Source: Acidobacteriaceae bacterium
Lineage (GTDB): Bacteria > Acidobacteriota > Terriglobia > Terriglobales > Acidobacteriaceae
DNA length: 45,656 bases
NCBI GenBank assembly: GCA_003138975.1
Contig: PLHQ01000154.1
Location: 26,473 to 72,128 of the forward strand
Direction: 5' to 3'
Under the pieces are notes generated by a model. It saw only the letters and a program-made list of their open reading frames with translations, was not told the origin of the DNA and did not search any database. This document shows positions 1 through 3,918 of this stretch, piece by piece. The position numbers and the translations under genes were made by a program. Each line of letters opens with the position of its first letter. Positions within the stretch are counted from its first letter, which is position 1.

Positions 1-219
1 ACGGTTTTGGATGCTTGCGAAATCTGCGGCGCGGTCGGCTTCTACAAGTCTGGGAACGGAGTGGTTTGCAAGAACTGCGCTGCACCCATTAATCCGCAGT
101 CAGTAGGGACGGCGGGTGGCTGCAATCCGATTCCGCTAAAGGCGACGCAGACCGCCGACTCCGTGATTATTCAGGAGGCGGACATCGCGGCGGGTAGCCA
201 CGTGTTCGAGAAACAGTAA
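1..219 (+). CDS. DUF2318-type Cys-rich (Fe-S) protein, C-terminal fragment
   Basis: The gene is cut by the window edge; the frame is open from base 1, so the TTG at 7 is not its start. The visible 72 residues carry a CEIC pair, a CKNC pair and a closing GGCNPIPL motif. This is the signature of the C-terminal domain of DUF2318 membrane proteins, which are thought to bind an Fe-S cluster or metal. In Campylobacter (Cj1658-Cj1665) and enterobacterial fet loci, this family sits with an FTR1 iron permease, a P19 protein, two FtsX-like permeases and an ABC ATPase. The same order follows here: the next permease starts 3 bp after this stop. The assignment to iron handling rests on that context. FTR1 and P19 genes would lie off the left edge and cannot be seen. 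Confidence 0.8.
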   Translation, partial: TVLDACEICGAVGFYKSGNGVVCKNCAAPINPQSVGTAGGCNPIPLKATQTADSVIIQEADIAAGSHVFEKQ

Positions 220-222
220 GGG

Positions 223-1488
223 ATGTTCGTCCGCCTCGTCTACGAATCCTTCCGGCGCCAGAAGCGGCGCAAATTACTGGCCGGCGCGGCCATTACCCTG
301 GGCGTGACAGTCGCCACAGCGATGATTGCGGTCGCCACTGATATTGGCGACAAGATGAGTCGTGAGCTGCGCACGATTGGCGCCAACCTGCTGATCACTC
401 CGCAAGAAGATACGCTGGACGTAGAAATTGGTGGCGTCAACCTGAAGCCGCCGAGCGATGGCGCTTTCCTGAATGAAGCCGACCTGCCCAAAATCAAGGG
501 GACTTTCTGGCACAACAACATCACCGGATTTGCGCCGGTGCTGCCGGTGAATGCGACACTGCAGCGGGACGGCAAGACAGAAAATCTAACCCTGCTGGGC
601 ACGTACTTCGCGAAGGAAGTATCGTTTGGTAAAGAAGAGTTCACGACCGGCGTGCGATCGACTCACCCGTGGTGGAAGGTTTCCGGCGCGTGGCCCGATG
701 ACAGCTCGCGCGATGTTTTGCTGGGAGAGCGGCTGGCGGCGCGACTTTCAGCGAAGACCGGTGACGAGCTCGTGCTCTCCGGCCGACGGTTACGCGTAAG
801 TGGAATCCTTTCCACTGGCAGTGCGGAAGATGATGAGGTGGTGGGGCCAATCGCGCTGGCGCAGGAGATTCTTGGCAGACCGGGCGCCGTTCGCCGGGTC
901 TATGTGAGTGCGCTGACAAAGCCGGAAGACGCTCTGGGGCGGCGTGATCCAAAGAGCATGTCTGGGCCCGTGTATGACCGGTGGTACTGCTCGCCGTATC
1001 CGCAATCGATTGCTTACCAGTTGCAGGAGGCCATTCCTCACTCGCACGCAGAACAGATCCGGCAGGTCGCGCAGAACGAAGGAGCGGTGCTCACGCGCAT
1101 CGAAGGCCTTATCTATCTAGTCACGCTAGCCGCGCTGTTTGCTTCGGCGCTGGCGGTTTCCGCCGCGATGGCTACCGCTATTTTCGAGCGGCGCGCGGAA
1201 GTGGGTCTGATGAAGGCTCTGGGGGCGGGGCGGATGGCGGTTGCGTCCATATTCTTTGCGGAAGCAACGCTGCTCGCCTTGATCGGCGGACTCGTGGGCT
1301 TTGTCGTGGGTGGAATGCTCGCTCATCAGATCGGCCACTCGATCTTCAATTCGGAGATTTCGATTCCGGCTGTGCTTTTGCCAGTGATTTTGGCGATCGC
1401 GGTGATCGTAACGTTTGCGGGAAGCGCCGCCGCCATTCGTAAAGCGGTTGGACTCGATCCTGTGTTTGCGCTGCGAGGTGAACTGTGA
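223..1488 (+). CDS. ABC transporter permease, FtsX/MacB type (first of pair)
   Basis: This is a 421-residue inner-membrane permease. It has the usual MacB/FtsX plan: one N-terminal membrane helix (about 16-40), a large periplasmic domain (about 45-285), then three C-terminal helices (about 290-325, 337-366, 382-406) and a short tail ending in FALRGEL. The RAEVGLMKALGA loop between the last helices is the typical FtsX coupling element. The gene follows the DUF2318 stop by 3 bp and overlaps the next permease by 4 bp (GTGA), so the genes are translationally coupled. The order DUF2318-permease-permease-ATPase matches the Campylobacter Cj1660-Cj1663 iron cluster. That suggests work on periplasmic iron or redox delivery rather than on drugs or lipoproteins, but the substrate is not shown by the sequence. 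Confidence 0.85.
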   Translation: MFVRLVYESFRRQKRRKLLAGAAITLGVTVATAMIAVATDIGDKMSRELRTIGANLLITPQEDTLDVEIGGVNLKPPSDGAFLNEADLPKIKGTFWHNNITGFAPVLPVNATLQRDGKTENLTLLGTYFAKEVSFGKEEFTTGVRSTHPWWKVSGAWPDDSSRDVLLGERLAARLSAKTGDELVLSGRRLRVSGILSTGSAEDDEVVGPIALAQEILGRPGAVRRVYVSALTKPEDALGRRDPKSMSGPVYDRWYCSPYPQSIAYQLQEAIPHSHAEQIRQVAQNEGAVLTRIEGLIYLVTLAALFASALAVSAAMATAIFERRAEVGLMKALGAGRMAVASIFFAEATLLALIGGLVGFVVGGMLAHQIGHSIFNSEISIPAVLLPVILAIAVIVTFAGSAAAIRKAVGLDPVFALRGEL

Positions 1489-2658: not shown

Positions 2659-3918
2659 ATGATCGAGATCAAAGACGTAACCAAGCTCTACCCGGCGAAG
2701 GCTGCGGGAAACGAGAATGGGAACGGGAAAGAGAATCAGAACGGCGCCATTCACGCGCTCGACCATATTTCGCTGCATGTCGCGCAGGGCGAATGGCTGT
2801 CGATCATGGGGCCGTCTGGATCGGGCAAATCGACGCTGGTGAATTTGATTGGGTGCCTGGACCGGCTGACATCAGGCGAGATCTGGCTGGACGGGCAGAA
2901 TGTTGCCGGGATCTCTGGCAGTGAGTTGAACCGGGTGAGGGCGGAGAAGATTGGATTTATTTTCCAGCAGTTTCATCTGATTCCGTTTCTTACGGCGGTA
3001 GAGAACGTCATGCTGGCGCAGTACTTCCACAGCATGACGGATGAAAGAGAGGCGATTGAAGCGCTGACTCGGGTCGGGTTGGGTGACCGGTCGCATCATT
3101 TGCCTTCACAGCTTTCTGGCGGCGAGCAGCAGCGGGTCTGCATTGCAAGGGCCTTGATCAATGATCCGAAGATTATTTTGGCCGACGAGCCCACAGGAAA
3201 TCTTGACGCGGTGAACGAAGAGCTCGTTCTGCGGCTGCTGCGCGAGTTTCACCAGCAAGGGCGGACGATCGTGATGGTTACGCACGATCCTGTGGTTGCA
3301 CGGCTCGCCGACCGGCGAATTGAGTTCCATCACGGCAAGATTGCTTCGCAGGAAGTTTTTGCGATGGCTGATGAAGAGCAGTTTGACGAGGTGCTGGAAG
3401 AGCTGTGGGTGCTGGCCGAGCACGGCGAGATTGCCGAGGTGGAGCGTATGGAGGTCCACGGCGCGCTGCCGGTCAGCCTTGCAATTGAGAAGATGATGCA
3501 GATGGGGCTAGTCGTTTCCGCGCCGCATCCGCCGCTGGCCCACGGGCACAAGCCTTTCGTGAATCCGTGTCACGATGCGCTCAAACCTGTGTCCGCATCC
3601 CTAGGCGATGGCACGCTGATCGTGGAACTCACGGCGCGGGGCCGAGAGCGGGCGGGCAGCATCATCCGCCGTCACCGACTGGCCGAGCGGCTGTTCACGG
3701 ATAGCCTTGCGATGGACAGCGAATCCGAAATTGAGCAACAGGCCTGCAAGTTCGAGCACATTCTCTCACCGGAAGCGACTGACAAGATTTGCACGTTCCT
3801 CGGACATCCGCGGACTTGCCCGCATGGAGCACCGATCCCGCCGGGATTGTGCTGCGGCAGAAGTTCTGAATTTGCCGGAGCCACGATTGCGAGTAGCACT
3901 GCGCATAAGCAGGCCTAG
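2659..3918 (+). CDS. ABC transporter ATPase fused to a DtxR/IdeR-like metal-sensor domain
   Basis: This is a 419-residue single frame with a GAGGGGAGAG ribosome site. Residues 1-232 are a MacB/LolD-class ATPase: Walker A GPSGSGKST (51-59), Q-loop near 103, signature LSGGEQQR (152-159), Walker B IILADEP (172-178) and H-loop His209. A low-complexity Asn/Gly/Glu stretch (17-29) is inserted near the N-terminus. Residues about 238-399 match the DtxR/IdeR/MntR repressor family: a winged-helix segment (241-286), RRHRLAERL (337-345), ACKFEH (362-367), SPE (370-372) and CPHGAPIP (387-394). By alignment to DtxR, His339, Glu343, Cys363, Glu366 and His367 fall on metal ligands His79, Glu83, Cys102, Glu105 and His106. 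Glu359 replaces His98 and Glu244 replaces Met10. The wing holds an extra segment with His290, His295, His297, Cys304 and His305. Both halves are clear. Whether the sensor half binds DNA or only gates the ATPase is unknown. Confidence 0.88.
   Translation: MIEIKDVTKLYPAKAAGNENGNGKENQNGAIHALDHISLHVAQGEWLSIMGPSGSGKSTLVNLIGCLDRLTSGEIWLDGQNVAGISGSELNRVRAEKIGFIFQQFHLIPFLTAVENVMLAQYFHSMTDEREAIEALTRVGLGDRSHHLPSQLSGGEQQRVCIARALINDPKIILADEPTGNLDAVNEELVLRLLREFHQQGRTIVMVTHDPVVARLADRRIEFHHGKIASQEVFAMADEEQFDEVLEELWVLAEHGEIAEVERMEVHGALPVSLAIEKMMQMGLVVSAPHPPLAHGHKPFVNPCHDALKPVSASLGDGTLIVELTARGRERAGSIIRRHRLAERLFTDSLAMDSESEIEQQACKFEHILSPEATDKICTFLGHPRTCPHGAPIPPGLCCGRSSEFAGATIASSTAHKQA

Follow-up and report, generated by a model that had tools for sequence, protein, structure and literature searches.

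A DtxR-type domain joined to the ATPase of a Fet-like iron-uptake system in Acidobacteriota, a probable iron sensor on the transporter

We analyzed a stretch of 45,656 nucleotides from an Acidobacteriaceae bacterium (contig PLHQ01000154.1 of assembly GCA_003138975.1), which we will term the window. At its start, the gene order is FTR1-DUF2318, permease 1, permease 2, and an ABC ATPase that continues into a DtxR-type domain, followed by murI. These genes and the parts of the fusion protein are as follows.

1..219, + strand: 3' end of an FTR1-DUF2318 (FetM-FetA-like) gene (PF10080, 6.7e-22; motif)
223..1488, + strand: permease 1, FetB-like, MacB_PCD and FtsX (Pfam; 40% identity to an E. coli plasmid permease)
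1485..2657, + strand: permease 2, FetC-like, FtsX (Pfam; 30% identity to its counterpart, the second permease on the E. coli plasmid)
2659..3918, + strand: ABC ATPase-DtxR fusion (FetD-DtxR), 419 amino acids (profile matches, structural model, E. coli homologue)
2659..3357, + strand: ATPase part of the fusion, residues 1-233, with its last strand at 227-233 (identity to the E. coli plasmid ATPase; model)
3358..3630, + strand: winged-helix part, residues 234-324 (model; structural match)
3631..3855, + strand: DtxR metal-binding/dimerisation part, residues 325-399 (PF02742, 3.2e-26; structural match)

The FTR1-DUF2318 gene begins before the window, at G000:C159:25496 (L011:7497), and its portion before an assembly gap matches FTR1 (PF03239, 1.8e-37). 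(The gap consists of two bases, NN, at G000:C159:26471-26472, or L011:8472-8473, inside this gene and directly before window base 1.) In relatives, FTR1 and DUF2318 form a single uninterrupted gene. FTR1 has two REXXE motifs, and the DUF2318/FtrD-like domain carries CxxC-x13-CxxC-x14-C. The true start of permease 2 is uncertain, with the ATG at 1569 being possible.

On the E. coli plasmid, the counterpart of permease 1 sits downstream of the genes for FTR1, P19, and an Fe-S protein, and the full order there is FTR1, P19 ("iron transporter"), the Fe-S protein, both permeases, the ATPase, and then a TlpA-type and a hypothetical protein. Judging from these homologies, the window operon is a FetMP-FetABCDEF-type iron-uptake system, and its FTR1, DUF2318, and FtsX permeases supply the link to iron that had been only a guess in the first-pass annotation. 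It differs from FetMP-FetABCDEF in that FTR1-DUF2318 is one gene, in that no match to P19 (FetP, PF10634) was found in the genome (98.6% complete), and in that no FetE/FetF thioredoxin gene lies between the fusion and murI. FetD proteins (1654 of C. jejuni and WP_000117262.1 of the E. coli plasmid) have the same neighbors, namely FTR1, DUF2318, and two FtsX permeases, but the E. coli plasmid FetD stops after the ATPase (231 amino acids), whereas the window protein adds a DtxR sensor. In C. jejuni, each of fetA to fetD is reported to be required for normal growth in low iron (PMC10783030).

The best reading of the fusion is that it is the FetD ATPase of a FetMP-FetABCDEF-type system with a C-terminal DtxR-type regulatory domain. 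Residues 29-232 share 60% identity with the ATPase of the E. coli plasmid, and the structural neighbors of the ATPase part include MacB, MJ0796, and MetN. For the C-terminal half, both the PF02742 match and a structural match of the predicted model point to the two-domain DtxR fold (a winged helix plus a metal-binding/dimerisation domain). In the model there is no linker between the halves: strand 227-233 is followed directly by helix 1 (234-254). The full-length model has a pTM of only 0.61, so the arrangement of the domains is unsure, and the tail after about residue 400 is of low confidence. The DNA-binding domain of DtxR (PF01325) had no match in the fusion at E values up to 0.1, although a separate DtxR-type protein from the same genome matches it at 2.1e-11. 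Many but not all members of the DtxR/IdeR family have a third, SH3-like/FeoA domain; the fusion had no match to it (PF04023).

Joined halves could reflect an error of assembly or frame. We scanned named genomes with a single peptide pattern (IRRHRLAER) and kept the best 80 loci, of which 78 have the ATPase and DtxR matches in a single ORF (73 of these are complete) and the remaining two (L148 and L176) are cut at contig ends. With the same one-ORF architecture in 78 of the best 80 named loci, we rejected an artifact. Several proposals of the first-pass annotation held up: that the two halves share one frame and that the second half is DtxR-like, with a winged helix and a dimerisation region. 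In the profile check that it suggested, PF02742 matches (in the part at residues 325-399) and PF01325 does not.

The residues at the places of the DtxR metal ligands, and four extra cysteines, are:

3388..3390, + strand: E244, which corresponds to DtxR Met10 (placed by its offset from the 10-to-3 structural match in helix 1)
3673..3687, + strand: H339 and E343, which correspond to DtxR His79 and Glu83 (alignments)
3745..3759, + strand: C363, E366, and H367, which correspond to DtxR Cys102, Glu105, and His106 (alignments)
3790..3855, + strand: C378, C387, C398, and C399, in CxxLxHPxxCPHGxxIPxGxCC (alignments)

The fusion keeps three of the four residues of the DtxR primary metal site (Met10, Cys102, Glu105, and His106), with Met10 replaced by Glu, which agrees with the earlier remark that most metal ligands are retained. 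To assess conservation, we used three sets. The alignments A2 and A3 contain 63 sequences from the scan and the window's (5 of the 78 fusions were skipped and 10 of the remaining 73 were removed by hand; L149, which belongs to the 73, is in neither alignment); in them, the IRRHRLAER stretch is invariant by construction, while a 34-row set and a set of 16 fusions anchored on DUF2318 are free of this bias. In A3 (64 rows), C363, E366, H367, and all four extra cysteines are invariant, position 244 is E in 59 rows and H in 5, and position 359, which corresponds to DtxR His98, is E in 57. In the 34-row set, the four cysteines are present in 34/34, C363 in 32/34 (missing from L102 and L103), E366 in 34/34, and H367 in 33/34 (missing from L103). 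In the DUF2318-anchored set, all seven residues are kept in 15/16. (The exception, L259:5725-6738, is a degenerate fusion that keeps CPHG but has lost the primary metal residues and the CC pair, with a CC elsewhere.) The His79 place is Gln in 5 of these 16 and Lys in L259, and the Met10 place, generally Glu, is His, Asp, or Asn in some fusions. Given these replacements and the losses of C363 and H367, the classical DtxR site is not universal in the fusions, and the counts from the three sets make CxxLxHPxxCPHGxxIPxGxCC the most constant feature of the sensor. A His/Cys-rich insert in the wing (window 3526-3606, residues 290-316) is possibly a further metal site; within the 34-row set it is present in 13 Acidobacteriaceae fusions (L011 and L073-L084), partial in L085, and absent from the other 20.

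We propose, with a probability of roughly 60%, that the DtxR domain is an iron sensor on the ATPase that gives feedback inhibition by iron and is not a repressor. Other readings must be weighed against this one. The near-invariant four-cysteine site and the His-rich wing insert of the Acidobacteriaceae fusions would also suit an acceptor or chaperone that passes on the iron delivered by FTR1, with no gating of the ATPase. We consider this unlikely: the DtxR dimerisation fold and most of the primary-site residues are kept, and in the model helix 1 is continuous from the ATPase, which suits coupling rather than storage.

The first-pass annotation also raised the possibility that the fused protein is a membrane-tethered, DNA-binding, iron-dependent repressor of its own operon. 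The predicted winged helix does have the DtxR topology, but its sequence appears relaxed. Where the dimerisation domains are 0.5-0.6 or 0.6-0.7 identical, the winged helices are 0.23 or 0.29 identical in 48 fusions and 0.40 or 0.46 identical in 28 separate DtxR proteins from this phylum, and the mean net charge of the winged helix is −7.0 in the fusions (n = 48) versus −0.4 in the separate proteins (n = 28); because the rows within each set are related, these figures are contrasts and not independent trials. (The separate proteins are the best PF02742 matches and not a random sample; 28 of 31 were used, as MntR_own, L027, and L037 failed the segment rule, and the 48 fusions do not include L259 or L263. 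A run with a narrower rule dropped 3 fusions and 9 separate proteins, and the trend was unchanged.) In a hand alignment on helix 3, the window protein has G, L, P, and L where IdeR has S37, P39, T40, and Q43, residues that contact DNA. HMMER disagrees with this register, as its alignment to IdeR pairs the recognition helix with the wing insert, but a profile alignment of 32 insert-free fusions and the 28 separate proteins agrees with the hand alignment. These four columns vary across the fusions in A3. Compared to DtxR and IdeR, the fusion is not a separate protein, lacks the SH3-like domain, has four extra cysteines, has Glu in place of both Met10 and His98, and, in the hand register, has changed recognition-helix residues. 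By these comparisons, its winged helix was apparently not kept for DNA binding.

The promoter also argues against self-repression. In near relatives, it contains the palindrome TTGAAATTGAAATTCATTTTCAA, which we take to resemble the Fur box consensus. (A CRP/FNR-like site, GTGTGAT-N4-ATCAC, lies above this palindrome upstream of FTR1 in near relatives.) The window's own genome has an exact copy of the Fur-box-like site before the operon and one other copy at up to 3 mismatches, and the reversed control has no copy in the genome at up to 3 mismatches. The second site (G000:C63:8537-8559, or L271:3538-3560) lies where an OprB-family porin ORF begins. The genome has four long Fur matches. With up to 3 mismatches, the result is mixed: the site is present in 13 of 34 fused loci in our first set and in 38 of 59 in the scan set (genomes overlap between the sets), in 2 of 19 in a wider-phylum group, and in none of 8 unfused loci (8-12 mismatches, with shuffles at about 11); we derived the consensus from near relatives, and in most of the distant fusions it cannot be recognized. 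The drift on the DNA-binding side and the Fur-box-like promoter therefore suggest that transcription of the operon is probably controlled by another regulator. Fur most likely sets its expression, and the C. jejuni operon is reported to sit downstream of a Fur box (PMC6083913).

Overall, self-repression is improbable: a winged-helix topology is predicted, but the helix is acidic and relaxed, its DNA-contact positions are replaced in the hand alignment, and a Fur-like palindrome is conserved at the promoter of near relatives. The preference of the first-pass annotation for post-translational gating over DNA binding fits the same evidence better. Upstream of FTR1 in three unfused operons of one genus (L224, L227, and L230, at about −117 to −128) there is a different palindrome (ATGAGGACTAAATTGGTCGTCAA-like), and because unfused operons share it, loss of the sensor may accompany a change of regulator.

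Some relatives of the sensor are not joined to an ABC ATPase, and another group of DtxR domains is joined to a different part of a transporter:

L104:8755-9501, L107:3758-4405, and L193:4833-5492: separate DtxR-FeoA proteins with a CPHG..GxCC motif, directly downstream of feoB
L108:7936-9225, L109:7945-9237, and L110:7903-9219: fusions of an ABC-3 metal permease with DtxR (PF00950 and PF02742), beside ATPase genes

The DtxR-FeoA proteins share both CxxLxHPxxCPHGxxIPxGxCC and the acidic winged helix with the fusion (charge −8.0, n = 3, on a cruder segment), but they are separate proteins with a FeoA domain in place of the ATPase and feoB as the neighbor. In all three loci that we examined for this arrangement (L104, L107, and plasmid pPRO1 of Pelobacter propionicus, WP_011733790.1), the gene is directly behind feoB, and these proteins are possibly partners of FeoB rather than repressors. 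The ABC-3 fusions, which come from other Acidobacteriota, likewise combine part of an ABC transporter with a C-terminal DtxR domain, but there the domain is joined to the membrane permease, has DPHG and no CC pair, and belongs with a different transporter family. The window's own genome has just one other PF02742 protein. Its gene neighbors a transporter that we take from the sequence to be NRAMP-like, and a Glu stands where DtxR has Cys102; from its sequence, we read this protein as the manganese type.

The extra cysteines suggest another alternative, that they hold an iron-sulfur cluster and that the domain senses redox state or oxygen instead of free Fe(II). The cysteine quartet is complete in 34/34 fusions and is retained even in L102 and L103, which lack C363. 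However, the type and site of the cluster are guesses, and we know of no DtxR domain that bears a cluster; we think this quite unlikely. There is a precedent in FeoC, described as an Fe-S protein that affects the stability of FeoB (PMC10710835).

The search for the same architecture across genomes, also suggested at the outset, found the fusion to be widespread among soil Acidobacteriota. Among 35 regions chosen from class-level matches, 33 carry the fusion within this operon (L073-L103, L105, and L106), and the other two are the separate proteins of L104 and L107. All but one of the titles of the best 80 scan loci name Acidobacteriota. (L149:5437-6999 is a fusion in a contig titled Xanthobacteraceae, which is probably chimeric; its front half resembles another ATPase and there is no permease match beside it.) A plasmid search gave 82 records, and the 20 of them that were listed are annotated as separate regulators.

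As a sample anchored on the transporter, we took 297 genomes drawn over the phylum, 53 of which have DUF2318, and read 46 of these: 40 new ones and six already included as L011, L074, L077, L078, L079, and L081. (The other 7 all belong to the genus of L224-L230, and in G015 one of two DUF2318 places was read.) The fusion is present in 21 of the 46 and in degenerate form in one (L259); 9 have the permeases and the ATPase alone (L224-L230, L241, and L243), 6 show a different arrangement in which DUF2318 comes with a permease and an unfused ATPase, 4 break off before the ATPase, and 5 have no ATPase match. (In the unfused L229:6002-9568, the ATPase gene is 4 kb from the permeases, with two opposite-strand genes between. 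The DUF2318 gene of L243 has no FTR1 match.) Because these nine loci lack the DtxR half, as does the E. coli plasmid operon, the transporter can do without the sensor. The first-pass annotation had missed these lineages, along with the FTR1-DUF2318 gene at the window start, the four-cysteine site, and the FeoB-linked relatives of the sensor.

In a quick tree of the permeases and the ATPase (57 rows, with the sensor left out and L259 dropped), the unfused genus is the sister of the fused Acidobacteriaceae within a mostly fused tree, with three state changes. An old fusion with later loss suits this tree, but the branches are long and the tree alone cannot separate gain from loss. That the domain is a structural remnant with no regulatory role is very improbable: it is missing from one Acidobacteriaceae genus and two other genomes and is degenerate in L259, but many families keep it, and its ligand residues are near-invariant while its winged helix drifts.

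To return to the iron sensor, how might it work? DtxR domains pair and hinge upon metal binding. Two fused ATPases would sit under the pair of permeases 1 and 2, and would face each other because FetB and FetC probably pair as a heterodimer, as inferred elsewhere (PMC10783030). In a cell with plenty of iron in its cytosol, Fe(II), or iron in the four-cysteine site, would occupy the sensor and alter both how the two sensors pair and how the dimerisation domain hinges on helix 1. As the sensor is mounted on helix 1, which in the model is joined to the ATPase, such a change could reach the ATPase. Both ATPase domains would then be held idle, which amounts to feedback inhibition by the imported metal, while expression would be controlled separately, most likely by Fur. 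In this scheme we infer the binding of metal, dimerisation within the complex, the direction of the effect, the geometry of the partners, and the role of Fur as the regulator.

There is precedent for uptake systems whose ATPase ends in a regulatory domain. In MetN and ModC, C-terminal domains paired by ligand act on the ATPase, and a review names methionine (MetNI) and molybdate or tungstate (ModABC) as the founding examples of feedback by the substrate in ABC importers (PMC10710835). MetN is also a structural neighbor of the ATPase part. However, the regulatory domains of MetN and ModC differ in fold from DtxR, and the permeases of the fusion are of the MacB/FtsX kind. Also, "substrate" feedback would apply only indirectly, because in the account that we draw on the cargo of FetBCD is not established even in C. 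jejuni (PMC10783030).

The Fet transporter, the fold of the DtxR sensor, and ABC ATPases with C-terminal feedback domains are already known. What may be new is a DtxR domain as the C-terminal domain of an ATPase, with its DNA-binding side apparently let go; our searches of open-access PMC papers turned up no description of an ABC ATPase-DtxR fusion. More tentatively, the four-cysteine (CC-type) DtxR domain may have left DNA to become a general iron-sensing module and a direct, post-translational brake on two unrelated iron pumps, in the Fet ATPase fusion of Acidobacteriota and in the separate, FeoA-bearing FeoB partner of Acidobacteriota and Desulfuromonadia, perhaps with an iron-sulfur cluster. 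The fusion also offers a handle on the role of FetBCD, because lineages that have the sensor can be set directly against sister lineages that lack it. If the sensor does act on the ATPase, then these bacteria could stop iron uptake at once, with no wait for repression.
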